Source of the DNA: Bauldia sp. | GTDB lineage: Bacteria > Pseudomonadota > Alphaproteobacteria > Rhizobiales > Kaistiaceae | DNA length: 64,000 nucleotides | Direction: 5' to 3' | NCBI GenBank assembly: GCA_028284325.1 | Contig: JANQRX010000010.1 | Location: 248,001-312,000 of the forward strand | Shown here: positions 19,725 to 37,022 of the stretch, in pieces | How the letters are laid out: every line of letters begins with the position of its first letter | How positions within the stretch are numbered: position 1 is the first letter of the stretch | Position numbers and translations under genes: made by a program | Notes under the pieces: model-generated | What the model was told of the DNA's origin: nothing | Databases searched by the model: none | Seen by the model: only the letters and a program-made list of their open reading frames with translations

Positions 19725-19766
19725 GTAACTGATCGATTACATTGACAGGCGTAACTGATCGATTAC
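19725..19766. promoter_or_regulatory. Doubled TetR-type operator between ABM gene and tetR
   Basis: GTAACTGATCGATTAC occurs twice exactly, at 19725-19740 and 19751-19766, offset by 26 bp. Each copy is an imperfect palindrome (GTAA..GATC..TTAC). It is centred in the divergent ABM/tetR promoter region, as expected for a TetR-family autoregulated operator. Confidence 0.75.
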
Positions 19767-19795
19767 CTTGTGTCAAGCAGGAAATCGGAGCCGCC

Positions 19796-20416: not shown

Positions 20417-20480
20417 CCGGACTTGACGGCCAGCCGGCCGGATGCCCCTGTCTGTCGCGCGCGAGACGGAGCGGTGGGGC

Positions 20481-22073
20481 ATGGCGACGGACTACGATGT
20501 CATCATTGTCGGGGCAGGCTCGGCGGGCTGCGTGCTCGCCAACCGGTTGACGGCCGATCCGAAGCGCCGGGTCTTGTTGCTGGAAGCCGGCGGCTGGGAC
20601 GGCAAGTTCTGGAGCCGCATGCCGATCGGCTACTACCGCATGATCAACGACCGGCGCTACGCGCGCAGTTTCGCGACCGAACCGTCGGAAGGCACCGCCG
20701 GGCGCGCCATCGACTGGCCGCGCGGGCGCGTCATCGGCGGTTCGAGCTCGATCAACGGGCTGATCTTCATCCGCGGCCAGCACGCCGACTTCGACGATTG
20801 GGAAGCACAGGGCGCGGCGGGATGGTCATACCGCGATGTCCTGCCCTACTTCCGCAAGCTCGAGACCTATCGCGGCGGCGACAGCCAGTATCGCGGGCGC
20901 CTGGGTCCGATCCAGGTCGACGATCTGCGTAACGAGAACGCGGCCAACGACGCCTGGATGGCCGCCGCCGAAGCGTGGGGGCTCGCACCCAACGCTGACT
21001 TCAACGGCGCCACCACCGAAGGGGTCGGCCGTTACCAGCTCACGCTCGACGGCCGCTGGCGGTCGAGCGCCGCCACTGCCTACCTGCACCCGGTCAGGTC
21101 ACGGCCCAACCTGACCATCGTGACCGGGGTGCTGGTGGAGAAGGTGGTGTTCCAGGGCAACCGCGCCGTCGGCGTCGCCTGGCGTGGGCCCGATGGGGCC
21201 GAAACCGGCCGCGCCGCCAAGATCGTGCTTGCCGCCGGCTCCCTGCAGACGCCGCAGATCCTCCAGCTTTCCGGCATCGGGCCGGGCGACCTGCTGCGTC
21301 GCCACGGGATTCCGGTGATCCATGAGGCGAACGGCGTCGGCGAGAACCTGCAGGACCACTACCAGATGCGGACCATCGTCCGCATGAACCGCAAGTTGTC
21401 GCTCAACGATCAGGTGCGCAGCCCCGTCGGCCTGGCGAGGATGGGCCTGCAATGGCTGGTGAACGGCCGCGGTCCGCTCACCGTCGGCGGCGGCCAGATC
21501 GGCGGCGCCGCGACGACGAAGTACGCTGAGGACGGGCGGCCCGATATCCAGCTCTTCGCCATGCCGCTTGCCGTCGACAAGCCGGGCGCGCCGCTGCACG
21601 ATTACTCCGGCTTCACGACCGCGGTCTGGCAATGCCATCCGCGCTCTCGCGGCCGTGTTCAAATCCGTTCGGCGGACCCGGGCGAGCCGCCACGGATCGA
21701 CGTCAACTACCTCGCCGATCCGCACGACCAAAAAGTGATGGTCGAGGGCGTGAAGACCGTCCGCGAGATCCACGCCACGGCGCCGTTCAGGGAGCTGTGG
21801 GACGAGGAGGTGGTGGCCGGTCCGGAAGCGCGGACCGACGCGGAGATTCTCGATGCGGTCCGCCGCCACGCCGCCACCGTCTACCACGCCACCGGCACCT
21901 GCCGGATGGGCGTCGACGACATGTCGGTGGTCAGCCCGTCGCTCAAGGTCCACGGCGTCGACAACCTGTTCGTCGTCGATGCATCGGTGATGCCGAACAT
22001 CACCTCCGCCAACACCAACGCCGCGGCCCTCATGATCGGCGAAAAGGGCGCGGACCTGATCCTCGGTCCGTAG
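20481..22073 (+). CDS. GMC-family FAD oxidoreductase (choline dehydrogenase-like)
   Basis: 530 residues from the ATG at 20481, preceded by GGAGCGGTGGGG. FAD Rossmann motif VGAGSAGCVLANRL at residues 9-22, GMC signature 1 (GRVIGGSSSINGLIFIRGQ) and signature 2 (AAGSLQTPQILQLSGIG), catalytic His in VYHATGTCRMG, and the closing ANTNAAALMIGEKGADLI. GMC enzymes oxidise alcohols such as choline, polyethylene glycol or long-chain alcohols; substrate is not indicated. Same direction as tetR, convergent with MFS with 3 bp between. Confidence 0.93.
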   Translation: MATDYDVIIVGAGSAGCVLANRLTADPKRRVLLLEAGGWDGKFWSRMPIGYYRMINDRRYARSFATEPSEGTAGRAIDWPRGRVIGGSSSINGLIFIRGQHADFDDWEAQGAAGWSYRDVLPYFRKLETYRGGDSQYRGRLGPIQVDDLRNENAANDAWMAAAEAWGLAPNADFNGATTEGVGRYQLTLDGRWRSSAATAYLHPVRSRPNLTIVTGVLVEKVVFQGNRAVGVAWRGPDGAETGRAAKIVLAAGSLQTPQILQLSGIGPGDLLRRHGIPVIHEANGVGENLQDHYQMRTIVRMNRKLSLNDQVRSPVGLARMGLQWLVNGRGPLTVGGGQIGGAATTKYAEDGRPDIQLFAMPLAVDKPGAPLHDYSGFTTAVWQCHPRSRGRVQIRSADPGEPPRIDVNYLADPHDQKVMVEGVKTVREIHATAPFRELWDEEVVAGPEARTDAEILDAVRRHAATVYHATGTCRMGVDDMSVVSPSLKVHGVDNLFVVDASVMPNITSANTNAAALMIGEKGADLILGP

Positions 22074-22076
22074 CCG

Positions 22077-23285
22077 CTACGGTGCTTTGGTGACTGCCGC
22101 CAGGCGCCGATGCAGGACGAGCGCGCAGGCCACCGAGACCAGCGAGGCGACGATCGCAAGGACGAACGCCGGCGCGAAATCACCGAAGACGTCGAACAGC
22201 CGCCCCGCGACCCACGGCGCCAGTAACCCGGCGCAGCCCCAGGCGATGAAGACCACGGAAAAGACCCGGGCGAAGCGCTCTGCGCCGGTGAAGGCGCGCG
22301 TGAGCGTCGGCAGGCCGGAGGCCATGAGACCGTAGCCGGCCGCGATGATCGTGAGCGCGATGGCGCCGGACATCGGCGAGGGCGCGAGGAGGGCGAGGAG
22401 GGCCCCGGACCCGGCCACCAGCGGTGAAGCGACGACGATCGCGCCGGGGGACATCACGCGGGTCAGGAAGCCGACGCTGAGCCGCCCGCCGGTATTGCCG
22501 ACGGCGACGCCGAACAGGGCAAGACCCGACAGCCAGACGGCCGCGCCGCGGCTTTCCAGGATCGATGTGGCGAGCCCGAGCACCATCAGGCCGGCGAACG
22601 AACCGGCGGCAAAGGCACAGAACAGGAGGGTCACGGTGAGCGGCGACGCGCGCTGCGTTGCGGCTGATGTCGGCTGACCCTGCGTGCCGTCGTCGACTCT
22701 GGTCTCGCCGGATCGCCCGCCGGCGAACAGGACGGCGATCGAGGTCGCCGCCAGTGCCGCGGCCAGCAGGTAGAGCGCACCGAGCCCCCATCCGTCGGCG
22801 ACGAGAAAGCGCATGGCCGGCCCGAAGGTCGCGCCACCGAGACCGAATGCGGCGATGGCGATCGGCGTGGCGACGTCGGGCCGGTGATGGCGCGCCGCCG
22901 CGGTGATGCACAGGACGTAGATGGCGCCGCTGACGGCGCCGAAGCCGATCGCGAACGCGACCAGAAACGTCATGAAACTGCCCGCGGAGGCGGCGACCGC
23001 CAGCGCGACGACACCGACGAGCCCAAACAGCGCCGCCGCCCGGCTGTTGCGAAAGCCGCCGGGCAGGCGCGGCACCAGATAAACCGCCACGGTGAAGACC
23101 ACGATCGCGATGGAGAAGACCAGCCCGGCCTGCTCGGTGGTGATGTCGAAGGCCGCGTTCAGCGCCGGAATGACGGCGCTCCAGCCGTAGAGCCCGCCGG
23201 CGGCAAAGCACAACGCCACGAGCAACGGGAATCCGGTCTGGCGAACGCCGTCTGGCCGGGAACTGGGCGTCGCGGTCAATCCCAT
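22077..23285 (-). CDS. MFS transporter
   Basis: 402 residues from the ATG at 23285, 12 predicted membrane helices, with a short hydrophilic central loop (GGRSGETRVDDGTQGQ) as usual for MFS. Oxalate/formate antiporter-like or sugar-phosphate-like features are not strong enough to name a substrate. It is divergent from the thiolase operon, and the shared 123-bp region carries a GntR/HutC-type operator, so it may be the uptake step for that operon's substrate. Confidence 0.88.
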   Translation of the reverse strand: MGLTATPSSRPDGVRQTGFPLLVALCFAAGGLYGWSAVIPALNAAFDITTEQAGLVFSIAIVVFTVAVYLVPRLPGGFRNSRAAALFGLVGVVALAVAASAGSFMTFLVAFAIGFGAVSGAIYVLCITAAARHHRPDVATPIAIAAFGLGGATFGPAMRFLVADGWGLGALYLLAAALAATSIAVLFAGGRSGETRVDDGTQGQPTSAATQRASPLTVTLLFCAFAAGSFAGLMVLGLATSILESRGAAVWLSGLALFGVAVGNTGGRLSVGFLTRVMSPGAIVVASPLVAGSGALLALLAPSPMSGAIALTIIAAGYGLMASGLPTLTRAFTGAERFARVFSVVFIAWGCAGLLAPWVAGRLFDVFGDFAPAFVLAIVASLVSVACALVLHRRLAAVTKAP

Positions 23286-23336: not shown

Positions 23337-23348
23337 TTGTAGATACAA
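23337..23348. promoter_or_regulatory. GntR/HutC-type operator
   Basis: TTGTAGATACAA is a near-perfect dyad (TTGTA-GA-TACAA) close to the HutC-subfamily consensus GT-N-TA-N-AC. It sits in the AT-rich middle of the MFS/thiolase divergent region, and a HutC-type GntR gene is third in the thiolase operon. Confidence 0.55.
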
Positions 23349-23408: not shown

Positions 23409-24584
23409 ATGGACAAGATGGTTGCAGTACTGGGCGCGGCGCTAACGACCTTCAATCGACGCAAGGACGGCTCGTCGTTCCGGGACTGGGCGGCCGAGGC
23501 CACCGATGCGGCCATCGCCATGGCCGGGCTCGAACGCGCCGAGATCGAGATGCTGGTCGTGGCGTCCGAGAGCGATTTCTTCACCCTGCAACTCAATCCG
23601 GCATCGGTGCTGGCGAACGATCTTGGCTTGTCAGGTGCGGCGGCGTTCAGGGTCGAGGGCGGCGGCGCCTCGGGGCAGTTGGCCGTTCATGCCGGCGTGC
23701 AGGCGATCCTGTCCGGCACGGCCGCGCGCGTCCTGGTCGTCGGCGTGGACCCGTCGGCCTCGCAGCTCCCCGCGGCGGCGATGAAGGAGCTCTACAGCTA
23801 TTCGTTCGACTTCTGGCACGAAGGTGCGACCGGCGTCAGCGCCACCGCCCTCTACGCGCTCTCCGTGCAGGGGGCCATGGAGCGGCTTGGCCTGACCGAC
23901 GACGATCTTGCCGCGGTCACCATCGGTAATCGCGACAACGCCCGACTCAATCCCAACGCCCACCTGCCCCGGCAGCACACCGCCGAGGAGATCGCCGCAT
24001 CGCCGATGATCGCCTCGCCCTACCGAAGGCTCCATTGTTCTCCGCTCAGCGACGGAGCGGCGGCGCTGGTGCTCGCGGCCGAAGCGTCGGTGCCGGCCGC
24101 GCGCCGATCCGCCGCCAGGATCAGGGGCATTGGCGCCGCCACCGATCGGGTCCATCTCGGCGCCCGTACCGCGCCCGACCACTTCGCCGCCAAGACGACG
24201 GCGATGGGCCGCGCCTGCACCATGGCCGATGTGACGCCCGAGCAACTCGAGGCGGCCGAGGTCTACGACGCCTATGCCGGGGCGCAGATCCAGGCGCTGG
24301 AGGCACTGGGCCTGTCGTCCGACATCGTCGTCGACCTGCGCGGTGATGCCTTCGGCCGTGGCGGCCGTTGCCCGGTCAATCTCTCCGGCGGATTGATGGG
24401 GCAGGGGGCGCCGGTCGGTGCGATCGGTGTCGCGCAGACGGCAACCTGCGCCCTCCTCGTCGAGGGTCGCTATCACGACGGCTTGCAGCCCGCGACACCG
24501 CCGGCGCTGGCACTGGCCGATACCCACGGCGGCGTCTGCACCACCGCGGCCGTGACCATCGTCGGTCAGGGAGCGGCGGCGTGA
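23409..24584 (+). CDS. Thiolase-like protein lacking the nucleophilic Cys (SCP2/Ltp2-like)
   Basis: 391 residues with a complete thiolase fold. The canonical acylated Cys (CASG) is replaced: residues 83-89 read EGGGASG, so Gly86 occupies the Cys position. The His of the usual GHPxGA motif is also changed (GQGAPVGAIG), though HCSPLSDGAAA and a C-terminal Cys (GGVCTTAAV) remain. This pattern, with a DUF35 protein encoded next to it (TGATG overlap), resembles Ltp2-ChsH2 retro-aldolases of steroid side-chain breakdown more than biosynthetic thiolases. Catalysed reaction is inferred, not shown. Confidence 0.85.
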   Translation: MDKMVAVLGAALTTFNRRKDGSSFRDWAAEATDAAIAMAGLERAEIEMLVVASESDFFTLQLNPASVLANDLGLSGAAAFRVEGGGASGQLAVHAGVQAILSGTAARVLVVGVDPSASQLPAAAMKELYSYSFDFWHEGATGVSATALYALSVQGAMERLGLTDDDLAAVTIGNRDNARLNPNAHLPRQHTAEEIAASPMIASPYRRLHCSPLSDGAAALVLAAEASVPAARRSAARIRGIGAATDRVHLGARTAPDHFAAKTTAMGRACTMADVTPEQLEAAEVYDAYAGAQIQALEALGLSSDIVVDLRGDAFGRGGRCPVNLSGGLMGQGAPVGAIGVAQTATCALLVEGRYHDGLQPATPPALALADTHGGVCTTAAVTIVGQGAAA

Positions 24585-24955
24585 TGAAGCACACGCTGAC
24601 CCTCGACTACGATCTCGCCGCCGGTTGGTTGCGTCCGTTCGTGGAGGGCCTCGCCGAAGGTGTCGCGAGGGCACGGCGGTGTGACGGGTGCGGCCGCGTC
24701 AGCTTCGTGCCCCTGCGCGTCTGCGATTGCGGCAAGGCGCACGGAAGCTGGATCGACCTGCCAGGAACGGCGACCGTCAGCCGGCGGACCACGGGCGCCG
24801 ACGGCGATTTCGGCCTTGTGACCTTCGCCGGCGCCGACACGAAGACGGTCGCCCGGCTCGATGGTTTCGGGCCCGGTGACCGGCAAGGCGCCATCGTCCG
24901 CCCGCCGTCGGCGCTGCCGGCCATTATCCTGCGGCCTGAACCGAAGGTGGCATAA
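24584..24955 (+). CDS. DUF35 OB-fold protein with zinc ribbon (thiolase partner)
   Basis: 123 residues: an N-terminal helix (RPFVEGLAEGVARARRCDGC), a rubredoxin-like zinc ribbon (CDGC and CDCG, near residues 33-52), and an OB-fold segment (GTATVSRRTTGADGDFGLVTFAG) that would bind acyl-CoA. In characterised systems DUF35 proteins are obligate partners of thiolase-superfamily enzymes. Start ATG overlaps the thiolase stop (TGATG), indicating stoichiometric co-translation. Confidence 0.88.
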   Translation: MKHTLTLDYDLAAGWLRPFVEGLAEGVARARRCDGCGRVSFVPLRVCDCGKAHGSWIDLPGTATVSRRTTGADGDFGLVTFAGADTKTVARLDGFGPGDRQGAIVRPPSALPAIILRPEPKVA

Positions 24956-24956
24956 A

Positions 24957-25721
24957 ATGAGCCAGGAAACTTTGGTGGCTAAGCGTGCCACGCCGAAATA
25001 CGAAAACGCCTATCGGGTCATTCTTTCGCGGCTCAAGTCGGGCCGCTATCCCGTCGGCGGTCGCATGCCCACGGAAGGCGAACTGGCGCGGCAGTTCGAC
25101 ATCAGCCGCGTCACCATACGCCGCGCGCTCGATATGCTCGTGCAGGACGGCTACATCGAGAGCCGGCAGGGAAGCGGCTACACCGTCCTGACGCTGTCGC
25201 CGGCCTCCGACACCTGCCTCACCTCGTTCACCGACGCGATGCTGCGCGCCGGCCGCGAGCCGATGTCGCGCCTGATCGCCATCGACGAGCTGGAGCCGGG
25301 GTCGGCGGCCACGGCGACGCTGCCGGAGGACATGCGCAAGGTGCCGATCACTCGCGTCCGCCGCCTGCGCCTGGTCGACGGCGAGCCGGCCATGCTGGTG
25401 ATGACCTATGCGCCGACCCGGCTCATGAGTGGCGCCTTGCCGGAAGACTTTCCCGAGTCCGGCCCCGGCCAGTCGATCCTGAGAATCCTCGTCGAGCGGT
25501 TCAATCTGTCGTGGCTGTCGGCCTGCGAGGATATCAGCCCCGTGGCTGCCGACGATCACCTGGCCGACATCCTGACCACCGATATCGGACAGCCGCTCCT
25601 GAAGCAGGCCTGCTCCGCCTTTGACGCCAACGGGCGGACGGTCTTCCACGAGGACGTCTTTCGCGCCGGCCCCGTCAGCTTCAATCTTTCCCAAGCGTCG
25701 CGAACGCCGCGGCACACCTGA
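24957..25721 (+). CDS. GntR/HutC-family transcriptional regulator
   Basis: 254 residues. N-terminal winged HTH (MPTEGELARQFDISRVTIRR, ALDMLVQDGYIESRQGSG) and a C-terminal UTRA effector domain, which defines the HutC subfamily. It begins one base after the DUF35 stop and precedes the nucleoside hydrolase gene by 14 bp. It is the natural candidate to bind TTGTAGATACAA (23337-23348) and control the operon and the divergent MFS gene. Confidence 0.92.
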   Translation: MSQETLVAKRATPKYENAYRVILSRLKSGRYPVGGRMPTEGELARQFDISRVTIRRALDMLVQDGYIESRQGSGYTVLTLSPASDTCLTSFTDAMLRAGREPMSRLIAIDELEPGSAATATLPEDMRKVPITRVRRLRLVDGEPAMLVMTYAPTRLMSGALPEDFPESGPGQSILRILVERFNLSWLSACEDISPVAADDHLADILTTDIGQPLLKQACSAFDANGRTVFHEDVFRAGPVSFNLSQASRTPRHT

Positions 25722-25735
25722 ACAGGACGCTCACG

Positions 25736-26815
25736 ATGGCCGACCCGAGGTTTCCCGCGCTCGACCGCGATCTGATGGAGGCGCGCCTGGCGCCGCCCGA
25801 CGGACCGGTGCGCCTGCTCATCGACACCGACACTGCCAACGAGATCGACGACCAGTACGCGCTGGCGCTGGCGCTCCTGTCGCCCGACGCCATGACGGTC
25901 GAGGCGGTGACGGCCGAGCCGTTCTCCTTCGCCCACCATCAGAAGGATCTTCTGGCGGCCGAACGGGCGCTCGACGCCGGGACGGCGCTCGACGAGCATC
26001 TCGTCGGGTCGCTGCGCGGCTGGATCGGGCGACTCCACGCCGCCGGCCGTCGCGCCGCCGACCTGCGCTTCGTCGGTCCGGCCGAGGGCATGGAGATGAG
26101 CTATGCCGAGATCAGGACGGTCTACGACAAGCTCGGCATCGCGGCCGACGGCGAGGTCTTCCGGGGCGCCGACCGTTACATGCCCGATGCCGCGACGCCG
26201 ATCCGGTCGGAAGCCGTCGATTGCATCATCGATCTCGCCAAGAGCGGCGCCGCGCCCCTCTACATCGGTGCCATGGGCTGCGTCACCAACATCGCCTCGG
26301 CGATGCTCGTCGCGCCCGAGATCATCGAGAACATCGTCGTCATCTGGACCTCGGCCTATCCCTCGCACGCGCCTCACAGCAACCGCCCGTCTCTGAACCT
26401 GGTGCAGGACCTGCCGGCGTCGCGGCTGATGTTCGACAGCGGCGTGCCGCTGGTCTACCTGCCCGGCTACCATGTCGGCGCCCAGCTGACGATCTCGCTG
26501 CCGGACATGGAACGGTTCGTGAAGGGCAGGGGGGCGATCGGCGACTATCTCTTCCATCTCTACACCCACAATCCGCTGCACGAGATGTTCGCCATCGATG
26601 ATGCCGCCCGGCGCACCTGGGTGATCTGGGATCTGATCGTCATCGCCTGGCTGATCAACCCGGACTGGGTGTCGACCTACGTTACGGCGACGCCGATCCT
26701 CGACGACGACCTGCATTGGAAGCACGACCCGACCCGGCCGCCGATGCGGGAAGGCTTCGGCGTGCAGCGCGACGAAATCTTCCGCGACCTGTTCGACAAG
26801 ATCGGGCGACTGTAG
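25736..26815 (+). CDS. Inosine/uridine-preferring nucleoside hydrolase family protein
   Basis: 359 residues, slightly longer than typical family members (about 310-330). The calcium-binding Asp cluster is modified: DTDTANEIDDQYAL instead of DTDxxxDDxxA, with the extra residue keeping both Asp pairs. The LYIGAMGCVTNIA segment corresponds to the active-site strand, and the tail has a WVIWDLIVIAWL helix. It should cleave an N- or related glycosidic bond. Being in an operon with a thiolase-like enzyme is unusual, so its substrate may not be a normal nucleoside. Confidence 0.82.
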   Translation: MADPRFPALDRDLMEARLAPPDGPVRLLIDTDTANEIDDQYALALALLSPDAMTVEAVTAEPFSFAHHQKDLLAAERALDAGTALDEHLVGSLRGWIGRLHAAGRRAADLRFVGPAEGMEMSYAEIRTVYDKLGIAADGEVFRGADRYMPDAATPIRSEAVDCIIDLAKSGAAPLYIGAMGCVTNIASAMLVAPEIIENIVVIWTSAYPSHAPHSNRPSLNLVQDLPASRLMFDSGVPLVYLPGYHVGAQLTISLPDMERFVKGRGAIGDYLFHLYTHNPLHEMFAIDDAARRTWVIWDLIVIAWLINPDWVSTYVTATPILDDDLHWKHDPTRPPMREGFGVQRDEIFRDLFDKIGRL

Positions 26816-26821
26816 GAGTTG

Positions 26822-27763
26822 TCAGGCCGACCGGGCGTCGGGCGTCCTGTCGCTGATCGCCGCGATGAGCTCGCGCAGGCGCGCGGCGCCGACCGTGGCG
26901 AGCCACTCGCGCAGGCCGGCCTCGCCGTCACGGCCGAAGACGGCGATCCCGTCGGACCAGATGGCCCGGCCGCACATGAAGCCCGCGAAGTCGATCCCGG
27001 CCTCCCGCGCCAGATGGAGCGAATCCCGGAACCGGTCGAACGGGACACCGGCGCTCAGATAGACCAGTGGGATGTCGCCGGCGGCGGCCGCGGCGGCGCG
27101 AAACGCCTCGACGGCCTCGGCACGCGACATCACCGCGTCGCCGTAACCTTCCACGAAGGTCAGATCGACGGGGACCTCGACCTTGAGCACGCTGGCCCCG
27201 AACCGGGGATCGGCGAACGTCGCCGTGGCGCGCCGCACCAGCTCCGGCTTGCGCAAGGCGAACTCGATCGATCCGGGCTGGAGATGGCGGTCGTAGACCA
27301 GCGGCTCCATGAGGAACCGCAGCCCGTGCGCCGCGCACGCGGCCCCGATGTCCGCCACCCGCTGCTCCTTGCGCGCGTTCAGCTCCGGTGGGTCATCGGG
27401 CGCATAGAACATGAAGAACTTCAGCAAGTTAACGCCCATGCCCGGATAGTCGCCGATCTCGATGTGGGTCGGCAGGACGGTCATCCGGTCGGCATCGGTG
27501 ATGTGATAGACGTCGGCCTCGTAGGCCATCATCGCCGCGCATCCGTCGGGATAGTCCGCCAGCAGGTCGGGGCCGAACTCGGCATCGATCAGCACCGTGC
27601 TCGCGAGCGGCCCCAGCGTGGTCAGCACGCAGCGCTTGAAGGTCTTCAGGTCGTCGTCCCGGGCGTTGGCGCCGCGCGCCTCGCGAATGGTTGCCGCGAG
27701 GCCGCTGCCGGCGTCGACCGCGACGCCATGGATGGGACGTTCGATCGGGACCGGTTCGCTCAC
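26822..27763 (-). CDS. Class I aldolase, tagatose-1,6-bisphosphate aldolase-like (LacD)
   Basis: 313 residues from the GTG at 27763, which overlaps the DhaK stop (GTGA). The Schiff-base Lys is in VLKVEVPVD (Lys194), and LLKFFMFYAPDDPPELNARK matches the LacD/COG3684 family. LacD splits tagatose-1,6-bisphosphate into DHAP and glyceraldehyde-3-phosphate. Here it is the last gene of an operon with a DhaKL-type kinase and a sugar isomerase-like protein and no visible bisphosphate-forming kinase, so a ketose 1-phosphate may be its real substrate. Confidence 0.85.
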   Translation of the reverse strand: MSEPVPIERPIHGVAVDAGSGLAATIREARGANARDDDLKTFKRCVLTTLGPLASTVLIDAEFGPDLLADYPDGCAAMMAYEADVYHITDADRMTVLPTHIEIGDYPGMGVNLLKFFMFYAPDDPPELNARKEQRVADIGAACAAHGLRFLMEPLVYDRHLQPGSIEFALRKPELVRRATATFADPRFGASVLKVEVPVDLTFVEGYGDAVMSRAEAVEAFRAAAAAAGDIPLVYLSAGVPFDRFRDSLHLAREAGIDFAGFMCGRAIWSDGIAVFGRDGEAGLREWLATVGAARLRELIAAISDRTPDARSA

Positions 27764-28782
27764 CGCCCCGCGCCCGCCCCGTAAATCCGCGGGAAGTCTG
27801 GGCTCGCCTGCGGCGCTTCCCACAGGGCCAGCATGGACGGCGTCGCCGTCAGGAGCGAAATCGAGAAGCCCGCGGTCTCCTGGGTCGTCGACAGCGAACC
27901 GATCACCGGCGATGTCGTCGGCACGCCGCGCGCGTCCAGGATCGCGGCCACTTCGCGATAGACGGTCAAGAGTTCCATACGCGTCGTCCCGCCCGAACCG
28001 TTGATCAGCGCCACGGTCGGCGTACCGGCCTCGATCGGTCGGTCGGCCAGGAGTTCGTCCATCATGAAGCCGACGAGATCGCCGACCGGACCGATCTTCC
28101 GCCGGGCGACACCGGGCTCGCCGTGCACGCCCATGCCGATGAAGATCTCGTCGTCCGGCAGCGCGAACATGGGCTGGCCGGTGAGCGGCGACACACCGGG
28201 CGCGATGGCCGCACCCAGCGTTCGGGTGCGCGCGCGCACGTCCTCGCCGAGCGCGACCAGGTCGTCGAGGGCCATGCCGGTTTCGGCCGCAGCACCCAGG
28301 ATCTTGTAGATGAAGATCGTGCCGGCGGCGCCGCGCCGCTCCTCTTCCTCGCCCTTCGGCGCCGACGAGATGTCGTCGTACATGAGCAGCGGACGGACCT
28401 TCAGGCCCTCGTCCAGCGCATCCATGACCGCCGCCTGGCCGTTGATGACGTCGCCCTCGTGCCGCGAGATCAGGAGGACGGCGCCGGCCTCGCCGGTGAC
28501 CTCCCTGATCCCTTCGAGGATGAGATCGGCCGACGGCGCGGCAAACACGTCGCCGACCACATTGGCGTCGAGCAGCCCCTCGCCGACAAAGCCCATGGCG
28601 ATCGGCTCATGGCCCGACCCGTTGCCGATCACGAGAGCGACCTTCTCGTCACGCGGCTTCGGATGGCGCCGCCTGACGACGCGCGGGTGAGCGCCACGCA
28701 CCACGACCGGCGCATATGCCGCAACAAAGCCGTCGATCATGTCGTCGGCCATGCGATCGGCGGCGTTGAACAGCTTCTTCAT
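27760..28782 (-). CDS. DhaK-like dihydroxyacetone/ketose kinase subunit
   Basis: 340 residues from the ATG at 28782, ATGA overlap with dhaL. DhaK binds the ketose covalently as a hemiaminal to an active-site His: GMGVHGEPG (His220) matches E. coli His218, and GNGSGHEP (His58) matches the second conserved His. The protein is a little shorter than some homologues. No PTS-type DhaM gene is present, so ATP rather than PEP-derived phosphate is likely. Related pairs phosphorylate erythrulose or other ketoses, fitting the sugar context. Confidence 0.88.
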   Translation of the reverse strand: MKKLFNAADRMADDMIDGFVAAYAPVVVRGAHPRVVRRRHPKPRDEKVALVIGNGSGHEPIAMGFVGEGLLDANVVGDVFAAPSADLILEGIREVTGEAGAVLLISRHEGDVINGQAAVMDALDEGLKVRPLLMYDDISSAPKGEEEERRGAAGTIFIYKILGAAAETGMALDDLVALGEDVRARTRTLGAAIAPGVSPLTGQPMFALPDDEIFIGMGVHGEPGVARRKIGPVGDLVGFMMDELLADRPIEAGTPTVALINGSGGTTRMELLTVYREVAAILDARGVPTTSPVIGSLSTTQETAGFSISLLTATPSMLALWEAPQASPDFPRIYGAGAGR

Positions 28783-29321
28783 GCCGAGGTCCGCCACGTC
28801 GCGTATTCGTCCAGCATCTCCGCGACGGAGACGGCGCCGGCGTCGAGATGCCCCACGCCCTTGCCCTCCACGTAGCGCGCGCGTCCCCGCCTGGCGCTGA
28901 GCGCCTTCGTGCCGTCGGCGCCCTTGCGTGCCGCTGCTGCCGCGGCCGTGGCGGCGTTGGCCGGATCGGTGTTCGCGGCTTCGGCCGCCGGCACCAGGGC
29001 ATCGAGCATGGTCTTGTCGCCGACCTTCGCCTGACCGAGCTGCGTGATCTGGTCGGCCGCCTGGCCGAGTGCGGCGCCCAGTGGCATGGCGTCGGCCTCC
29101 ACCGTTTCCAAGGCGGCGATCAGCCGGCTGAACAGGGAACCCGACGCGCCGCCGGCCACCGTGCGGAAGAACCTGGCGCGTCCGGTTTCGGCGTCGGCCG
29201 CGGCCTTCAGGCCCTTCAGGATCGTCGAGCCGTGGTCACCGTCGCCGGTGGCGGCATCGAGCTCGTTGAGCGCCGATTCCAGCCCGCTGAAACGCGTCAC
29301 GAGGCGATCGAACAGACTCAT
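28779..29321 (-). CDS. DhaL-like kinase subunit (nucleotide-binding)
   Basis: 180 residues. The Asp triad that binds Mg-nucleotide is in ATGDGDHGST (residues 24-33), followed by GGASGSLF and GDKTMLDAL, both family marks. It is the ADP/ATP domain that transfers phosphate to the DhaK-bound ketose. Precedes dhaK with ATGA overlap, 25 bp after the ABC ATPase gene. Confidence 0.9.
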   Translation of the reverse strand: MSLFDRLVTRFSGLESALNELDAATGDGDHGSTILKGLKAAADAETGRARFFRTVAGGASGSLFSRLIAALETVEADAMPLGAALGQAADQITQLGQAKVGDKTMLDALVPAAEAANTDPANAATAAAAAARKGADGTKALSARRGRARYVEGKGVGHLDAGAVSVAEMLDEYATWRTSA

Positions 29322-29346: not shown

Positions 29347-30390
29347 CTACTCCGCCGGCAGGATCCATAGTTTGTTCTCGGGGAACTGGAGGGTGATCCT
29401 GTCGCCCTGGCCGTAGCGCTTCATCACGTCGGCGTCCGCCACGACGTTCACCGTGTGGTCGTCCACGGTCACGCGCAGGCGGGCATGGGTGCCGACATAG
29501 ACCTGGGAGTCGATGGTGCCGGAGACGGTGTTGGTCTCGCCGTCCTCGGACAGGCGCACGTCCTCCGGGCGAATGGTCAGGATCCCGCCATCTGCCGGAC
29601 CATCGCGGGTCACGCTGAAGCGGCCGATGGTCGAGGTGAAGCCGTCGCCGTCCTGTGTTCCGGTGAAGAAGTTCACGCCGCCGAAGAAGGCGGCGATGCG
29701 ACGCGAGCTCGGCTGCTCGTAGAACGCCAGCGGCTTGTCGTATTGCTGGAGCCGGCCGTCGAAGATCAGCGCGATCTTGTCGGCCAGCACCACGGCCTCC
29801 TCCTGGTCGTGGGTCACGAACACGGTGGTGATCCCCATTTGCTGCTGGATGTCGCGGATCAGGTCGCGCATCTCGAAGCGCAGGTGGGCGTCGAGATTGC
29901 TGAGCGGCTCGTCGAGCAGCAGGATCTTGGGGCGCACGACCAGGGCGCGGGCGAGCGCGACGCGCTGCTGCTGGCCGCCGGAGAGTTCCTTCGGCCGCCT
30001 GTCCTCCATGCCGGGCAAGCGGACCAGCTCCAGCATCTCTGCCACCTGCCGATCGATCTCAGCCCGCTCCATGCGGCGCATCTTGAGGCCGTAACCGACG
30101 TTCTGCGCGATGCTCATATAGGGGAACAGGAGGTGGTTCTGGAACACCATCACCGCGCCCCGCCGTTCCGGCGGGATGGACAGGATGGAGCGCTCGTCGA
30201 ACAGGATGTCGCCGGTCGTCGGCTTCAACAGGCCGGCGATCATCTTCATCGTCGTCGTCTTGCCGCAGCCGGACGGTCCGAGCAGCGCGGTCAGGCTGCC
30301 GGACTCGATATCGAGGTCGAGGTCGTCGACCGCGGGCGCGGCCTGCGCGGCGTAGACCTTGCTGAGGCCGCGGATCGCAAGATGTGTCAT
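29347..30390 (-). CDS. ABC transporter ATP-binding protein (MalK/PotA type)
   Basis: 347 residues. Walker A GPSGCGKTT, signature LSGGQQQRVALARAL, Walker [14 protein letters not shown]-loop VFVTHDQEE, then a C-terminal TOBE/regulatory domain of about 110 residues. It energises the two permeases upstream in this operon. It follows the GH51 gene and precedes dhaL. Confidence 0.95.
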   Translation of the reverse strand: MTHLAIRGLSKVYAAQAAPAVDDLDLDIESGSLTALLGPSGCGKTTTMKMIAGLLKPTTGDILFDERSILSIPPERRGAVMVFQNHLLFPYMSIAQNVGYGLKMRRMERAEIDRQVAEMLELVRLPGMEDRRPKELSGGQQQRVALARALVVRPKILLLDEPLSNLDAHLRFEMRDLIRDIQQQMGITTVFVTHDQEEAVVLADKIALIFDGRLQQYDKPLAFYEQPSSRRIAAFFGGVNFFTGTQDGDGFTSTIGRFSVTRDGPADGGILTIRPEDVRLSEDGETNTVSGTIDSQVYVGTHARLRVTVDDHTVNVVADADVMKRYGQGDRITLQFPENKLWILPAE

Positions 30391-30420: not shown

Positions 30421-32373
30421 TTACGCATCGTTCGTCTCAATCGGTAGGACGGCCATGGCCACGGTGTGGGGCGGAATCCGCAGCGGCCCGTCCGCCGGCA
30501 ACGGGTCCTCCTCGATGACGACGGCCTCGGGCGCGTCCTCGGTGTTGAGATCCTGCGGCCCGCCGCCGGTGACGCGGAGGAGCCTGCCACCGTCACCGCG
30601 GGTCACGCCGGTCACGTCGATGGTGCCGGCGCGGTCGGGGTCGCGATTAACCACCGACAGGTACAGCACGCCCTTGTCCGGGTCACAGGTCGCGGCGGCG
30701 TCGACCAGCGGTACGGCGTCATAGGCGGGCAGGGTGCCGGCCGCCGGTGTCGCGACCGTCGGGCCGTCGGCGGAGCAGGCGACCGCAACCGGTCCGCGGA
30801 ACCGCGTGAACAGTTCCAGCACCAGCGTCGTCGGCGTCTTCCACACCTGCGTGGGCGTAACCCGGTAGTTGCCCATCACGTTGATGAGATTGAAGCACGC
30901 CGACATGGTCACCCACGCCGCGCGCTGCAGGCAGCCGTTCATCAGCGCGCCGGTGTAGAGGGCGTCGGCGATGCCGTAGTCCTCGAAGAAATCCGGCGGC
31001 TTGCCGCCGACATAGGTGTTCCACTCGTCGAAGGCGATGGTCGGCGCGGGATCGGCATGGGCGCGCACGATCTCCCACGTGCGGTCGAGCATCGCGCAGA
31101 CCTCGTGGGCCGAGGCGACCTTGGGCCAGTACAGTTCGGACGCCGGTGGCGGCGTCGACCACTTTTCCGTCCGGATGGAATAGTAGTGGACGCTCAGTTC
31201 GCGGATGCGGTCGCCGGCTTGCCTGAGGACCAGCTCGTTCCAGCGGCCGTAGAGATCGTTGGGCACCCCGACGGCAATGAGGTCGAGCGTGTCGTCGACG
31301 GCGAGCATGGCGTCGGCGAAGGCGAGATAGCGATGGGCGTAGGTCTCGGCATCGCAGTGGCCGACCTGCCAGTTGCCGAACTGCTCGTTGCCGACGAACC
31401 ATGTCGTCACCGCGTGGGGTTCGGGGAAGCCGTTGGCCGCGCGCAGGCGCCCCATCTCGGTCTCCGGCCCGCTGTTGCAGTAGGCGATCCAGCGGGCGGC
31501 CTCGTCGGGTGTGCCCGTGCCCATGTTGTTGGTCAGGATCGGCTCGGTGCCGACATGGCGGCAGAGGGCGATGAACTCGTCCGTGCCGACATCGTTGGAC
31601 TCCCACAGCGACCACGCCGGGTCGAGGTAGCCGGGCCGCGTGTCGCGGTCGCCGATGCCGTGTTCCCAGTGATAGGCCGAGGCGAAGTTGCCGCCCGGCC
31701 AGCGCAGGAAGGTCGGTCCCCATTCGCGGAGCGCCTCGATGACGTCGGGGCGGAAGCCGTCGACGTTGTCGGCCGGCATGACCGAGACGCAGCCGACCCA
31801 GAGGTCGCCCTCGGCGCTGTGCGCGATCGAGAAGACAGCGTCATCGTCGGCCTGGCCGATCGTCAACTCGGTCCGGTAGGTCTGCCAGTCGGAAGAGACA
31901 TCCGCGATCCGCCAGACCTGATCGCCGAGCCGGACCTCGACCTCCTGGCCGATGCCCTTCAGCACCACCCGCACCTGATAGCTGCGGCCCGCATCGACGG
32001 TGAGGCCACCTTGTCGAATACCGTGGGGCTGTCCGTCGGCGCGCCGGATGGTGATCCGCTGCGACTGCGCGCCGGTATAGAAGGTCGTGTTGTCGTGGAC
32101 GAAGAGCACATGATCGTCGTCCGGCGCCAGCGCCTCCCACGGTGCGACCACGCCGAAGGAGGGGTGCTGGTGCGCCAGCCCTTCGCTCAGGCCCACATAG
32201 GCGTGATCGTGGCCGAGGAACTTGCGGTTGCGCAGCAGTTCCGCCCAGACGCCCTCGTAGATCGAGCGGCCGATATGCTCGAGATTGGCGCCATAGAGAT
32301 GGTCATGCACAGCCCCCAACTGGATGCCGGGATCGACGGCGATGCTCGCGGAGAAGACGCCTACCTCGCTCAT
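30421..32373 (-). CDS. Alpha-L-arabinofuranosidase-like GH51 protein, cytoplasmic
   Basis: 650 residues from the ATG at 32373 (ATGA overlap with the permease). No signal peptide, so it acts inside the cell on imported glycosides. The N-terminal and C-terminal beta-sandwich parts flank a TIM barrel with WPGGNFASAYHWEHGIG, the acid/base Glu in WFVGNEQFG (Glu330) and the nucleophile Glu in IAFDEWN (Glu450). GH51 enzymes remove terminal arabinofuranose; a few act on xylan or glucan. A frame reaching to 33219 overlaps the permease gene and is not real. Confidence 0.93.
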   Translation of the reverse strand: MSEVGVFSASIAVDPGIQLGAVHDHLYGANLEHIGRSIYEGVWAELLRNRKFLGHDHAYVGLSEGLAHQHPSFGVVAPWEALAPDDDHVLFVHDNTTFYTGAQSQRITIRRADGQPHGIRQGGLTVDAGRSYQVRVVLKGIGQEVEVRLGDQVWRIADVSSDWQTYRTELTIGQADDDAVFSIAHSAEGDLWVGCVSVMPADNVDGFRPDVIEALREWGPTFLRWPGGNFASAYHWEHGIGDRDTRPGYLDPAWSLWESNDVGTDEFIALCRHVGTEPILTNNMGTGTPDEAARWIAYCNSGPETEMGRLRAANGFPEPHAVTTWFVGNEQFGNWQVGHCDAETYAHRYLAFADAMLAVDDTLDLIAVGVPNDLYGRWNELVLRQAGDRIRELSVHYYSIRTEKWSTPPPASELYWPKVASAHEVCAMLDRTWEIVRAHADPAPTIAFDEWNTYVGGKPPDFFEDYGIADALYTGALMNGCLQRAAWVTMSACFNLINVMGNYRVTPTQVWKTPTTLVLELFTRFRGPVAVACSADGPTVATPAAGTLPAYDAVPLVDAAATCDPDKGVLYLSVVNRDPDRAGTIDVTGVTRGDGGRLLRVTGGGPQDLNTEDAPEAVVIEEDPLPADGPLRIPPHTVAMAVLPIETNDA

Positions 32374-33323
32374 ACCCGGCCGAAGCCTCCGACGGCGCTG
32401 GAGTCGCCCGACAGGTAGCGCGAGGCGACCAGCAGGATGAGGACCGCGGGCGCGATGAAGATCAGCGACAGCACCGCGATGACCGCGTTGTTGCCGCTGC
32501 CGGCGGCCGAGAACAGGAGCATCGGCAGCGTGATCACGCGCCCCTGGCCGATCAGGAACGTCAGGAGATACTGGCTCCACGACACCAGGAACGCGAACAG
32601 TCCGGCGACGAACAGGCCGGGCAGGATGGCCGGGAACGTGACATCGAAGAAGATGCGGATCGGCCCCGCACCGAGGCTGCGCGCCTGGGCCTCGAAGTCG
32701 GCGTTGTAGTTGGCGAACACGCCGCTCAGCGTGAGCACGACGTAGGGCATCACCGGGACGAGATGGACGATGGCGACGCCGACGACGCTGCCGGCGAGAT
32801 CGAGCGGAATGCCGGCATCCGCGAGCGCCAGGTCCCAGCGGATGAAGTTGATGTTGAGGCCGAGGCTGAACGCGATCGGCGGCACGATCGTCGGGGTGAT
32901 GATCATGAACTCGACGATGCGCTTGCCCCTGAACCGGTAGAGACCGAGCGCGCGTGCCGCCGGCAGGCCGATGAGGATCGAGATGCCCGTGACCACCGCG
33001 CCGATCGACAGGCTGAGCCACAGCGCGCTCACGGCGTCGGGAACCTCGAGCCACAGCGCAATGAAGTTGGCCAGCGTCCGTTCGCCCTCGGGCGGGATCA
33101 GATCCAGCCGCTCCCAGGCCTGCAGGCTCCACTCCTTGGGAATGAACTGCGGATAGAACCAGCGGAAGGCGAAGGCGTTGAAGAAGAAGGCGATCACCGG
33201 CAGCACGAGCATGAGGCACATGAAGGCGATCGTCAGATAGAAGATCACCTTGCGCACGGCGGCGCCGACATTGCCGTCGCGGGCGGACACGTTCGTTGAA
33301 GCAGTGGGGGCGGCGTCGGACAT
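32370..33323 (-). CDS. ABC transporter permease (second TM subunit)
   Basis: 317 residues, six membrane helices, with the EAA loop EAQARSLGAGPIRIFFDVTFPAILPG before the fifth helix. It is the PotC/MalG-like partner of the permease encoded 4 bp upstream. Long soluble N-terminus of about 25 residues. Overlaps the GH51 start by 4 nt. Confidence 0.93.
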   Translation of the reverse strand: MSDAAPTASTNVSARDGNVGAAVRKVIFYLTIAFMCLMLVLPVIAFFFNAFAFRWFYPQFIPKEWSLQAWERLDLIPPEGERTLANFIALWLEVPDAVSALWLSLSIGAVVTGISILIGLPAARALGLYRFRGKRIVEFMIITPTIVPPIAFSLGLNINFIRWDLALADAGIPLDLAGSVVGVAIVHLVPVMPYVVLTLSGVFANYNADFEAQARSLGAGPIRIFFDVTFPAILPGLFVAGLFAFLVSWSQYLLTFLIGQGRVITLPMLLFSAAGSGNNAVIAVLSLIFIAPAVLILLVASRYLSGDSSAVGGFGRV

Positions 33324-33327
33324 CGGA

Positions 33328-34203
33328 CTAGTCGCGCCGTATCGTGCGCGCGCTGACGTACATGTAGAGGAACACCAGCGCGAGCACGATCAGGGCAATG
33401 ATGATGCTCGACGCCATGCCTTCGGCTCGGGCGTTGAGATCGGGGTTGAGGAAGAAGTCCAGCGTCAGCACCGGCAGCATCTGCGGGTGCTGCACGCCAA
33501 GGATGCGCGGCACCTCGAACGAGCCGAAGGTGAAGGCGAAGACGATGATCGACGCCGACATGAGGCCGGGCATGATCAGCGGCAGCGTCACCGTGCGGAA
33601 CCGCTGCCAGCGGTTGGCGCCGAGGCTCTGCGCGACCGCCTCGTAGTCGTCGCCGAGCGACTGCAGGATCGCCATCACGATGATGCCGAAGAAGGCGGTC
33701 TCCTTCCACACATAGGCGAGAATGATGCCGATGCCGTAGCGGTCGCGGGTCAGGATCGGGAAGTCCCGCGGCCCGCTGATGAGACCGAGTTCGCCGGCGA
33801 ACCGCGCCAGCAGACCGCTTTGCGAGAACAGGAGCAGCATGCCGATGGCGATCACCAGATGGGGGATCGGCAGGTTGAGCTGGAAGAGGAAGACAGAGAG
33901 TTTTTTACCAAAGAAAGTGCGGCGGAGCAGCAGCGCCAGCCCGACGGCCAGCGCAGCCGACAGGAACGTGCTGGCGCCGGCGACCCACAGGGTCAGCAGC
34001 AGGCCGGACCAGAACTGGCCGGCCTCGCGCCCGGTGAACATCACCGAGATGTAGGCGTCGAGGGTGAGGGTGGTGTTGCCGATCTGTGGCTGGAAGCCGA
34101 GGCTCTGGACAAGGCCGAAGGCCAGGCTGCCGAAGAACAGGACCGTGATGACGAGCAGGGTCGGACCGAGCATCAACGGTATGCGCAGCCGTTCCCAGTC
34201 CAT
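33328..34203 (-). CDS. ABC transporter permease (first TM subunit)
   Basis: 291 residues, six membrane helices, EAA loop EAVAQSLGANRWQRFRTVTLPLIMPG (about residue 184-209). It resembles the PotB/YnjC-type permeases. Located after the binding-protein gene, separated from it by the GC hairpin at 34231-34258. Confidence 0.93.
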   Translation of the reverse strand: MDWERLRIPLMLGPTLLVITVLFFGSLAFGLVQSLGFQPQIGNTTLTLDAYISVMFTGREAGQFWSGLLLTLWVAGASTFLSAALAVGLALLLRRTFFGKKLSVFLFQLNLPIPHLVIAIGMLLLFSQSGLLARFAGELGLISGPRDFPILTRDRYGIGIILAYVWKETAFFGIIVMAILQSLGDDYEAVAQSLGANRWQRFRTVTLPLIMPGLMSASIIVFAFTFGSFEVPRILGVQHPQMLPVLTLDFFLNPDLNARAEGMASSIIIALIVLALVFLYMYVSARTIRRD

Positions 34204-34278: not shown

Positions 34279-35550
34279 TCAGTTCGGCAGCGGCTCGCCA
34301 CGTAGGACGTGGGCCTGCCAGTCCGCTTCGATCCGGGACTGGTACTCGGCCGCGATGTCGGCCACCAGCGCGGCGGCGAGACGGGCCGGGTCGGCCGCGG
34401 CATCGCCGAGGTTCTGCATGGCCTCGGCAACCGCCGCCTGCTGGCCGGCGTCGCTGACGCGGGCGACGTCGATCGCCCAGCCGCAGCAGAAACCGTTGGC
34501 CGGCTGGACCTGGGCCGCCTGGCGGTCGGGCCGCAGGATCAGGTTCGCCGTCACCAGCGCGGCCGCCTTGTTCGGCGCGTTGAACGGGATCGCGACGTAG
34601 TTGAAGTCGCCGATCAGGTTGGCGTCGAACGCGAACGCCCGCGACGTCGGCGGGACCAGGCCGGACTCGATGTTGCTGGCCGGGCCCGAGGGCGACTGGG
34701 TGAAGTCGAACTCGACCTCGCCGTTGGCGAACAGGTCACGCAGCTCGGCGTTCGAGGCCGGATAGGTTTCGCCCTCGCGCCACAGGTTCGGCTTCCAGGC
34801 GATCAGCATCTTCCAGACTTCCGGCGCCCACTTGTTGTAGAGCTCCTCGTTGAACGGGCCGACCCACTGGGCGTGGCCGCCGCTCACCTCGAAGAACAAC
34901 TGCTTGACGAAGCGCGTGCCGACAAAGGCACCGGGCCCCGGCGCGATGTAGCTGAAGCGTCCGGGATTGGCCGCGATCCAGTCGCCGAGTTCGGCGTAGG
35001 ACCGCGGAAGGTCACCCTCATTGAGGCGTGCCGAATCGTAGACGAAGTGGAACTGCGCGCTCGACCACGGGCTCTCATAGCCCTCGACCGGGCGGCCGAA
35101 GTCCAGGTTGATCGCCGGGTTGGCCCAGTCGACCAGGGCGGAGTTCGGAACGCCTTCAGCCCACGGACCGTAGAGCAGGTCAGCCTGGCGCAGCGTGAAG
35201 AAGTTCTCGCCGTTGATCCAGATGAGATCGATCGTGCCCTTGTCGCCGGTCGCCCCGGCTTCCTGCTCACTGATCACCTGGTTGACGGCGTCAACGGTGT
35301 CGGCGAGCGGCACCCGCTCCAGCGTGATGCCGTACTCCTCCATCAGCGGCTTGCCGTAGAAGTTGTCGACAAAACCGTTGATGTTGTCCGAGCCGCCCCA
35401 CATGTACCAGAACACCGTCTGGCCGTGGGCCTGCTCGACCACCTCGTCCCAGCTACCGAAGCCCGGCAGATCGTCCGCCACGGCATGGGTGCCGAATGCC
35501 GTTGCCGCGGCGACCGCCAGCACACCGGCCATTCGTTTCATCGTTTGCAT
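34279..35550 (-). CDS. YnjB-like ABC transporter substrate-binding protein
   Basis: 423 residues from the ATG at 35550, preceded by GGGAGG with good spacing; the signal peptide (MKRMAGVLAVAAATAFGTHAVA) supports it. The mature protein opens with QTVFWYMWGGSDNINGFVD and continues with IDLIWINGENFFTL, features of the YnjB/COG4134 family, whose ligand is not established. Context (GH51, isomerase, kinase, aldolase) suggests a pentose- or arabinoside-like ligand here. Confidence 0.9.
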   Translation of the reverse strand: MQTMKRMAGVLAVAAATAFGTHAVADDLPGFGSWDEVVEQAHGQTVFWYMWGGSDNINGFVDNFYGKPLMEEYGITLERVPLADTVDAVNQVISEQEAGATGDKGTIDLIWINGENFFTLRQADLLYGPWAEGVPNSALVDWANPAINLDFGRPVEGYESPWSSAQFHFVYDSARLNEGDLPRSYAELGDWIAANPGRFSYIAPGPGAFVGTRFVKQLFFEVSGGHAQWVGPFNEELYNKWAPEVWKMLIAWKPNLWREGETYPASNAELRDLFANGEVEFDFTQSPSGPASNIESGLVPPTSRAFAFDANLIGDFNYVAIPFNAPNKAAALVTANLILRPDRQAAQVQPANGFCCGWAIDVARVSDAGQQAAVAEAMQNLGDAAADPARLAAALVADIAAEYQSRIEADWQAHVLRGEPLPN

Positions 35551-35573
35551 AGTCATCCTCCCTTGGTTTCTCG

Positions 35574-37022
35574 TCATGCGTTGATGCCGTCCCGCTGCAA
35601 ATGATCAGCATAGGGCACCGGTTCGACAAGCCGCATCTTTTTCCATGCGGCGAGTTCCATGAGTTCGTCCGTTACGTCGCCTTGCCCCATCGCGAAATGG
35701 TGCTGATGGCCGCGAACGGTCAGCGTGTTGATCAGGTCCCAGAGTTCGATGGGCTCACCATTGAGATACGTCTTCGACAACCACCCGCGTGTTCCATCGT
35801 AGCCGGTCGAGGGGTGATCGACGACCTCCGACTTCACGACCAGAAGCTGGTCGGCGAACTCGTTGATGTAGGCGATCGACACCGGCTGGAGGGCGAAGAC
35901 CTGGTCGCCGGCGACCCCGTAGGGTCCGTCCGAGGCATTCCGCCCCAGCGTCACATGGTCGACCCAGCGGATGCCGTCGGCGTTGGCGAAGTGGCGAGGC
36001 GTCACCCCGCAATGCCACATCAGGAACGCCTGCCGGTCCGGATCGAGCGCTGCGAGGTCGAGGAGCGTTGACGAGCCTCTGGTCTCCGACAGGAGGTTCA
36101 ACACGTGCATGCTGACCGCGCCCAGAACGTCGCCTTCGCAGGACACCGGCATGTCGTGCTCGCTGCCGAGCCAACTGTAGGCCATGCACGGCGCGATCCC
36201 GTACAGTTGCTGGATGGTCGACCAGCACTGCACCGCCATCGTGTCGAACTCCATGTCCTGCGACAGGTCGTGAAGCGCGAGATAGAACCGGGTCACGCGA
36301 TCGAACGCGCTGTCCTCGCTCACCGTGACGCTGCTTGCCGCGGCGCGTATCTCCCGCGTCGCGTCGGCGACCCGGTCGGGCGCGATCGCTTTGGCCCGAT
36401 CCACCACCTCTTCGAGGTCGAGCGGCACCAGCGCGACGCCGAGGCGCGCCTGAAACGCCTGTTCGTCGGGCAGCATGCCGACAAAACCCGGGGAGATTCC
36501 GCCGATCCAGCCCACGCGCGTCCGGGCAAGGTTGGTCGCGGCCCTGAGCGCCCGCGCGGTGACCTCGAACCTGCGGCGAAACCCCGCCGAGTCCGGTGCG
36601 CCGTAGAACCATTTGAACGGGATATCGCGGTCCCGGAACCGGGTCTTGATGACGCTGGCGAAATGGTTCATCGATACCAGCGAATGCAACTGCACCTCAC
36701 CGTCCTGCCTGGGATCGGGGACGGACCAGAGCCCGATCCGCGGCGCCGCGTCCACCAGCGGATAGAGCTGTTCACCGGCGCTGCACGCCGCGTTCTGGAT
36801 CATGAGGAAGTCGAGGTCGGCGGCCCGCAACTCGGCGGCCGCCGCAGTGGCATCCGCTTCCGTCAGGATGGGCCGCTCGATGGCCGTCAGGTCGAAGCCG
36901 AGGTCCCCGGCGTAGCGCTGCAACGCCGCGACCGCGGTTTCGCGGACCTGGTACCTCTCGCCGAAATAGGACGAGATCGACACGCCGACGTAGCCGATTC
37001 GAGGCCGATGCCTGATCTTCAT
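35574..37022 (-). CDS. L-fucose/L-arabinose isomerase-superfamily protein
   Basis: 482 residues. The FucI/AraA C-terminal-like fold is shown by the metal-site motif CEGDVLGAVS (Glu about residue 292), the MAVQCWSTIQ segment and a His-rich GHQHHFAMGQGD (near residue 450). Such enzymes isomerise an aldose to its ketose with Mn2+; some family members act on sulfo- or phosphorylated sugars. It is the first gene of the nine-gene operon ending at 26822, 23 nt before the binding protein. Confidence 0.85.
   Translation of the reverse strand: MKIRHRPRIGYVGVSISSYFGERYQVRETAVAALQRYAGDLGFDLTAIERPILTEADATAAAAELRAADLDFLMIQNAACSAGEQLYPLVDAAPRIGLWSVPDPRQDGEVQLHSLVSMNHFASVIKTRFRDRDIPFKWFYGAPDSAGFRRRFEVTARALRAATNLARTRVGWIGGISPGFVGMLPDEQAFQARLGVALVPLDLEEVVDRAKAIAPDRVADATREIRAAASSVTVSEDSAFDRVTRFYLALHDLSQDMEFDTMAVQCWSTIQQLYGIAPCMAYSWLGSEHDMPVSCEGDVLGAVSMHVLNLLSETRGSSTLLDLAALDPDRQAFLMWHCGVTPRHFANADGIRWVDHVTLGRNASDGPYGVAGDQVFALQPVSIAYINEFADQLLVVKSEVVDHPSTGYDGTRGWLSKTYLNGEPIELWDLINTLTVRGHQHHFAMGQGDVTDELMELAAWKKMRLVEPVPYADHLQRDGINA

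Follow-up and report, generated by a model that had tools for sequence, protein, structure and literature searches.

A thiolase-fold protein without a catalytic cysteine, THL, and its DUF35 partner, encoded side by side in a 64,000-nucleotide stretch of DNA from Bauldia sp. (the whole of which we call the window), probably form a CoA-thioester lyase catalysing the last step in the breakdown of a C5-blocked pentose. More tentatively, the pair may act as a CoA-dependent C–As lyase, converting dimethylarsinoylacetyl-CoA to dimethylarsinate and acetyl-CoA. A search of the literature found no paper describing the cluster to which these genes belong.

The thl gene (23409..24584, + strand) encodes 391 amino acids. 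Alignment places Gly86 (RVEGGGASG) at the position of the nucleophilic cysteine of the thiolases 7YVY and 6ESQ (VEAACASG), and the late GHP motif of thiolases reads GAP (Ala334, within GQGAP): both substitutions had been claimed in the original prediction. A further change was overlooked there: the histidine of the HDxF motif aligns with Tyr286 of THL (V-Y286-D-A-Y). The nucleophilic cysteine, the HDxF histidine and the GHP histidine of SCP2-type thiolases are all three absent from the protein, which carries in addition a D-T-H373-G-G motif. The fold itself is kept, as predicted: the structural model (pLDDT 91.5) is that of a thiolase, with a TM score of up to 0.91 to 6ESQ at 27% identity.

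The DUF35 gene (24584..24955, + strand; 123 amino acids) begins with an ATG at 24584 that overlaps the TGA of thl at 24582-24584. The two had been described as fused by overlap; the overlap (TGATG) is real, and it joins two genes rather than the parts of a single fused protein. The description of the partner as a zinc ribbon plus OB fold holds: four cysteines (C33, C36, C47 and C49) form a C-x2-C-x10-C-x-C ribbon of the rubredoxin-like type, and the predicted structure (pLDDT 93) has the DUF35 chain of ChsH2, 6ok1_D, as its best match in the PDB, which supports the OB fold. The Pfam model zf-ChsH2 scores 21.6 bits, slightly below its cut-off of 23.2. C33, C36 and C47 are invariant among 36 aligned DUF35 rows; C49 is also present in the window protein.

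The altered active site is a property of a family. Relatives of THL at 42–67% identity were recovered in the main scan, which covered plasmids and genomes; on viral contigs none was found. Gly86 is present in 68 of 68 homologues. The original prediction had proposed as a test that homologues in the same gene context might keep the cysteine; this was run, none of the 68 does, and the reading is not refuted. Because Gly86 is universal and DUF35 directly follows thl in 65/65 loci, the loss of the cysteine is neither chance nor sequencing error. In the alignment Tyr286 is found in 64 of 67 homologues and Q295, Q332 and H373 in 67 of 67 each, while residue 288 is mostly Ala or Ser and residue 334 Ala or Gly. 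What is strictly kept across 42–67% identity is a new active-site set – Y286, D287, Q295, Q332 and H373 – with GQG and DxH[GA]G as new conserved elements.

The hosts are mostly marine Alphaproteobacteria (roseobacters, Devosia, Hoeflea, Nitratireductor, SAR116), together with Granulosicoccaceae. The family is rare: it occurs in 3 of 385 genomes in a sample of the class and in 1 of 398 in a sample of the phylum; both samples count the Bauldia genome, and the phylum find has the profile of a sister clade. In a maximum-likelihood tree (midpoint rooted, with some long reference branches) THL forms one clade with support of 100/100 amid cysteine-bearing thiolases; Ltp2 and Sal form a separate group (100/99) with the thiolase 4u4e inside it. 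Since the THL clade is placed amid cysteine-bearing thiolases, we infer that the cysteine was lost independently. On sequence grounds THL is outside both the Ltp2 and the Sal families, though it has lost the nucleophile and kept the base as in these cysteine-less aldolases.

The surroundings of thl in the window look like a sugar-catabolic locus. Divergent from it lies an MFS transporter gene of the SfMCT/OFA-like type (22077..23285, − strand), a family found near THL in both of the gene contexts described below. Downstream, on the + strand, follow a GntR/UTRA regulator (24957..25721; conserved in the cluster, 64–72% identical to its best orthologues) and an IU nucleoside-hydrolase family protein, NH (25736..26815; 16 matches in related loci at about 67–74%), in place of which some other THL loci have a PNP-family protein. 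On the − strand are a LacD-type (tagatose-1,6-bisphosphate) class I aldolase (26822..27823), DhaK-type (27760..28797, with the carbonyl-binding HGEPG motif) and DhaL-type (28779..29321) kinase subunits, an ABC importer comprising a TOBE_2 ATPase (29347..30390), two permeases (32370..33323 and 33328..34203) and an SBP_bac_8 substrate-binding protein (34279..35577), and a FucI-like isomerase (35574..37022) whose best curated model is the sulfoquinovose isomerase SftI, at 134 bits against a cut-off of 700. The window's GntR, NH, DhaK and LacD proteins are roughly 60–77% identical to their best orthologues. Within the ABC operon sits a GH51-like protein with an alpha-L-AF C-terminal domain (30421..32373, − strand); none of the related THL loci has one, and it was found only in the ABC operon of the window genome. 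A GMC (BetA-like) oxidoreductase (20442..22073, + strand) has orthologues of 55–60% identity near THL in three other loci (L028, L061, L070) and is possibly an accessory member of the cluster. Beside it, outside the conserved cluster, are an ABM-domain protein (19308-19676, − strand) and a TetR-like regulator frame (19742-20416, + strand). The neighbours had been read as a nucleoside hydrolase, an MFS transporter and a GntR regulator rather than steroid genes: their non-steroid character is borne out, and steroid degradation was rejected for want of steroid genes nearby, but LacD, DhaKL, the isomerase, the ABC importer and the CoA ligase had gone unread.

A gene-neighbour matrix divides the THL loci into two settings: type A (most loci) and type B (about 14 loci, a sister clade). 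Type A combines THL–DUF35–CoA ligase with GntR, NH (16–17 loci) or a PNP-family phosphorylase, an aldehyde dehydrogenase, ALDH (28 loci), a psicose-3-epimerase-like isomerase, DhaL, DhaK, LacD, the FucI/SftI-like isomerase and the ABC importer. DhaK is counted in 43 loci, LacD in 41, the isomerase in 47, GntR in 47 and an acyl-CoA synthetase frame in 67. Nucleosidase or phosphorylase (NH or PNP), SftI-like isomerase, C1 kinase (DhaKL) and DHAP aldolase (LacD) are thus encoded together, a gene set of the DHAP-shunt type. Type B has the order LysR, CoA ligase, TRAP transporter, THL–DUF35, CoA ligase. The fourth zinc-ribbon cysteine, present in type-A DUF35 proteins, is missing from many of type B (e.g., CLHDG, CPEDG, CSYDR).

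The window is a type-A locus without a local CoA ligase, and neither the 3-epimerase nor the ALDH is near THL in it. A ligase 70–71% identical to those of type A is encoded on another contig of the same genome (C1:456522-458147). Next to it are GntR genes and an SDR; a THL-adjacent SDR of SAR116 is 67% identical to the latter. This ligase lies between two UTRA GntR regulators in a wider region (C1:447000-466000) that also encodes an ALDH, the SDR, two sulfatases and an ABC importer; relatives of the importer's binding protein are found beside THL in two other loci (L021, L068). Between the MFS gene and thl in the window lies a palindrome, TTGTAGATACAA (23337..23348). The palindrome TTGTANNTACAA, 61 bases upstream of thl and expected 0.02 times per window, recurs at the same position, exactly or with one mismatch, in most of the type-A loci examined, and is probably the GntR operator.

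A C1 ketose kinase plus a DHAP aldolase is the bacterial route for pentoses whose C5 position cannot take a phosphate; in the DHAP shunt, 5-deoxypentoses are degraded via phosphorylation, isomerisation and aldol cleavage (PMC6079011, PMC12632272). For the C5-blocked pentose we infer every reaction, the order of the steps and the substrate. The ABC system would import a furanoside or nucleoside, the presence of N-glycosidases in the cluster arguing for a nucleoside-like or ribofuranosyl precursor. A nucleoside hydrolase or phosphorylase (here perhaps the GH51-like protein too) would release a 5-X-5-deoxypentose, which the SftI-like isomerase, with the psicose-3-epimerase-like enzyme in most loci, would convert to a ketose; DhaKL would phosphorylate this at C1, and LacD would cleave it to DHAP and X-CH2-CHO. 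The aldehyde dehydrogenase would then yield X-CH2-COOH and the acyl-CoA synthetase X-CH2-CO-SCoA, from which THL–DUF35 would expel the enolate of acetyl-CoA, with Tyr286 as base and no cysteine adduct: retro-aldol chemistry rather than thiolysis. The acid that protonates the enolate might, with the acid residues of Sal and Ltp2 absent, be His373 or Gln332, both of which are guesses. Only an electrophilic X, either a carbinol carbon or an arsinoyl group with pentavalent arsenic, can leave as X-OH. The likeliest candidate we see for X is (CH3)2As(O), in which case the products would be dimethylarsinate and acetyl-CoA, and the MFS protein would export the arsenical.

In the sister clade, arsenite-oxidase-like AioA and AioB are encoded beside THL in two type-B loci, L072 and L076 (TIGR02693, 969.6 bits against a cut-off of 359; TIGR02694, 149 against 95.65), and in genome G065 the genes that follow the THL operon's LysR gene are those for an aquaglyceroporin-family protein, a pentapeptide-repeat protein, AioA and AioB. 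Four of the 15 type-B genomes have aioA, compared with 12 of 299 background genomes of the phylum sample that have any aioA; in three of the four it lies no more than about 12 kb from THL (3/15 loci). The chance of three such linkages in 15 is near 5e-9 (0.04 × 24 kb / 4.3 Mb per locus), a figure that ignores shared ancestry; gene orders do differ. The THL-linked AioA proteins form a subclade, 68–71% identical among themselves and at most 46% to every other AioA found, and no member of it occurs among the 299 phylum-sample genomes. The subclade blocks (L072 16693-19687; L076 14792-17849; L108 4329-7358; L109 2-2008) carry AioB (except in L109, a cut contig on which none was seen) and the aquaglyceroporin-family and pentapeptide-repeat proteins, and were found here only in genomes with a type-B thiolase. 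In one type-A branch an MFS gene is coupled to thl, and for these proteins the best NCBIfam model is ArsK, an arsenite efflux MFS, in 8 of 8 tested, albeit at 72–108 bits, far below the cut-off of 400; of ten control MFS proteins from the Bauldia genome none has ArsK as its best model. The MFS protein of the window resembles SfMCT rather than ArsK. The linkage in the sister clade and the ArsK-like MFS suggest, and do not prove, an arsenic substrate.

Some type-B loci carry MetF-like, URO-D-fold and BHMT genes, as demethylation would need. The URO-D-fold proteins near the aioAB block (L108 9990-11159; L109 7283-8449) are 80% identical to each other and may be corrinoid-type methyltransferases for demethylation; MetF-like proteins are found in L076, L019 and L109.

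Arsenosugars are made by algae and, in dissolved form, are scarce as a carbon source; to our knowledge, no enzyme for cleaving dimethylarsinoylacetate has been described. In arsenosugar biosynthesis arsenic is adenosylated by ArsS (PMC12159101), and dimethylarsinoylacetate is a bacterial intermediate according to the passage of PMC12608789 that cites Jenkins 2003. We hypothesise that this chemistry is linked to the THL genes: type A, the sugar cluster, would serve algal arsenosugars, and type B, with its TRAP transporter and aioAB, imported dimethylarsinoylacetate or products of arsenobetaine.

An ordinary carbon retro-aldolase, cleaving a 3-hydroxyacyl-CoA derived from a sugar or from an imported 3-hydroxy acid into an aldehyde or ketone and an acyl-CoA, is conceivable, if on balance rather doubtful; the arsenic genes of the sister clade would then be incidental. 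Sal and Ltp2, which share the subunit architecture and the conserved tyrosine, cleave steroids in this way, and the TRAP and LysR context of type B fits the import of a hydroxy acid. No arsenic genes were seen in the window or noticed near type-A loci among the flanking proteins listed, which were read by eye, and in the aioA search; the Bauldia genome has no aioA in our search, and its frequency in type-A genomes (1/33) is the background rate. Against this, LacD would deliver a 3-hydroxy acid only from sugars of at least six carbons (then losing formaldehyde, or longer), with no other obvious source; the acid residues of Sal and Ltp2 are absent from THL; and the private linkage of aioAB and the ArsK-like MFS would be left unexplained.

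That THL–DUF35 performs some other CoA-enolate chemistry without cleavage (decarboxylation, an addition of the aldol or Claisen type, or a PhlABC-like acyl transfer) we consider unlikely: its nearest folds and sequences are indeed those of thiolases, including the acetoacetyl-CoA thiolases that belong to DUF35 complexes (6esq), rather than those of Ltp2 or Sal, but with the cysteine and both thiolase histidines gone the usual acyl-enzyme chemistry is impossible, and the surrounding pathway is catabolic. The loss of canonical thiolase residues could also mean that THL is non-catalytic, or a scaffold that stabilises the CoA ligase; strict retention of the new active-site set makes this very improbable. 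Readings built on D-apiose/apionate, 2-deoxyribonate, carnitine, gonyol, galactofuranose, methylthioribose or hopanoids were set aside on pathway logic, since each fails to account for the aioAB linkage, for the CoA ligase together with the lyase, or for the combination of a C1 kinase with an aldolase.

If THL is a CoA-thioester lyase of any kind, then the conversion of a thiolase into a DUF35-paired lyase, with loss of the nucleophile, has happened at least twice and led to different catalytic residues. Should the C–As lyase reading be true, genes can be named for a chemically documented step (dimethylarsinoylacetate in bacterial arsenic turnover), seaweed-associated and SAR116 bacteria would be tied to arsenosugar breakdown, and THL–DUF35 would supply the last step of a complete bacterial route for degrading algal arsenosugars.

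Among known systems, the Ltp2–ChsH2(DUF35) steroid aldolase (TcLtp2, PDB 6OK1) resembles THL in its thiolase fold, missing nucleophilic cysteine, DUF35 pairing and YD-motif tyrosine. The Sal–Shy bile-acid aldolase (CtSal, PDB 9MYR) likewise has glycine at the nucleophile site, an equivalent tyrosine and a DUF35 partner. Catalysis depends on Tyr302 and Cys304 (YDCY) in CtSal and on Tyr294 (YDHF) and Tyr344 in TcLtp2 (PMC12329534). Alignment to 9MYR and 6OK1 matches Tyr286 of THL with the catalytic bases Tyr302 and Tyr294, whereas the acid residues Cys304 and Tyr344 become Ala/Ser and Ala/Gly, the latter at the Tyr344/Gln352 position of the known aldolases. Ltp2 differs in having YDHF and a second tyrosine where THL has YD[AS][YF] and Ala/Gly, and no steroid genes accompany THL; Sal differs in needing Cys304, in its GGQ/FGQ motifs (GGL/GQG in THL) and in a MaoC hydratase partner that THL lacks. 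Both belong to a separate clade. The original prediction of an Ltp2–ChsH2-type pair thus holds for the architecture, which is also that of Sal–Shy, and for the aldolase-type tyrosine; close kinship is contradicted by the tree and by the missing acid residues. Its partly supported core, which appears correct, is a cysteine-less lyase with DUF35 and a new substrate.

The Bauldia genome also encodes a second cysteine-less thiolase, of the Sal type (L087, G000:C5:95703-96836, − strand; motifs DLGGASG, YDCY and FGQP; best PDB match CtSal 9MYR, 293 bits), flanked by a CoA-ligase gene, a DUF35-like frame and an MFS gene; the region is probably a Sal-like aldolase cluster.

Nearest to THL in structure and in sequence are the archaeal acetoacetyl-CoA thiolase/HMGS/DUF35 complex (6ESQ) and the P. 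furiosus thiolase (7YVY), with TM scores of 0.85–0.91 at 27–30% identity; these keep the cysteine, the HDxF histidine and the GHP histidine, all of which THL has lost. The THL cluster as a whole resembles the DHAP shunt for 5-deoxyribose and methylthioribose, in which a nucleosidase, an isomerase, a kinase and a DHAP aldolase yield DHAP and an aldehyde, but it draws on other enzyme families (SftI-like, DhaKL, LacD) and adds oxidation, CoA activation and a putative CoA-dependent lyase.
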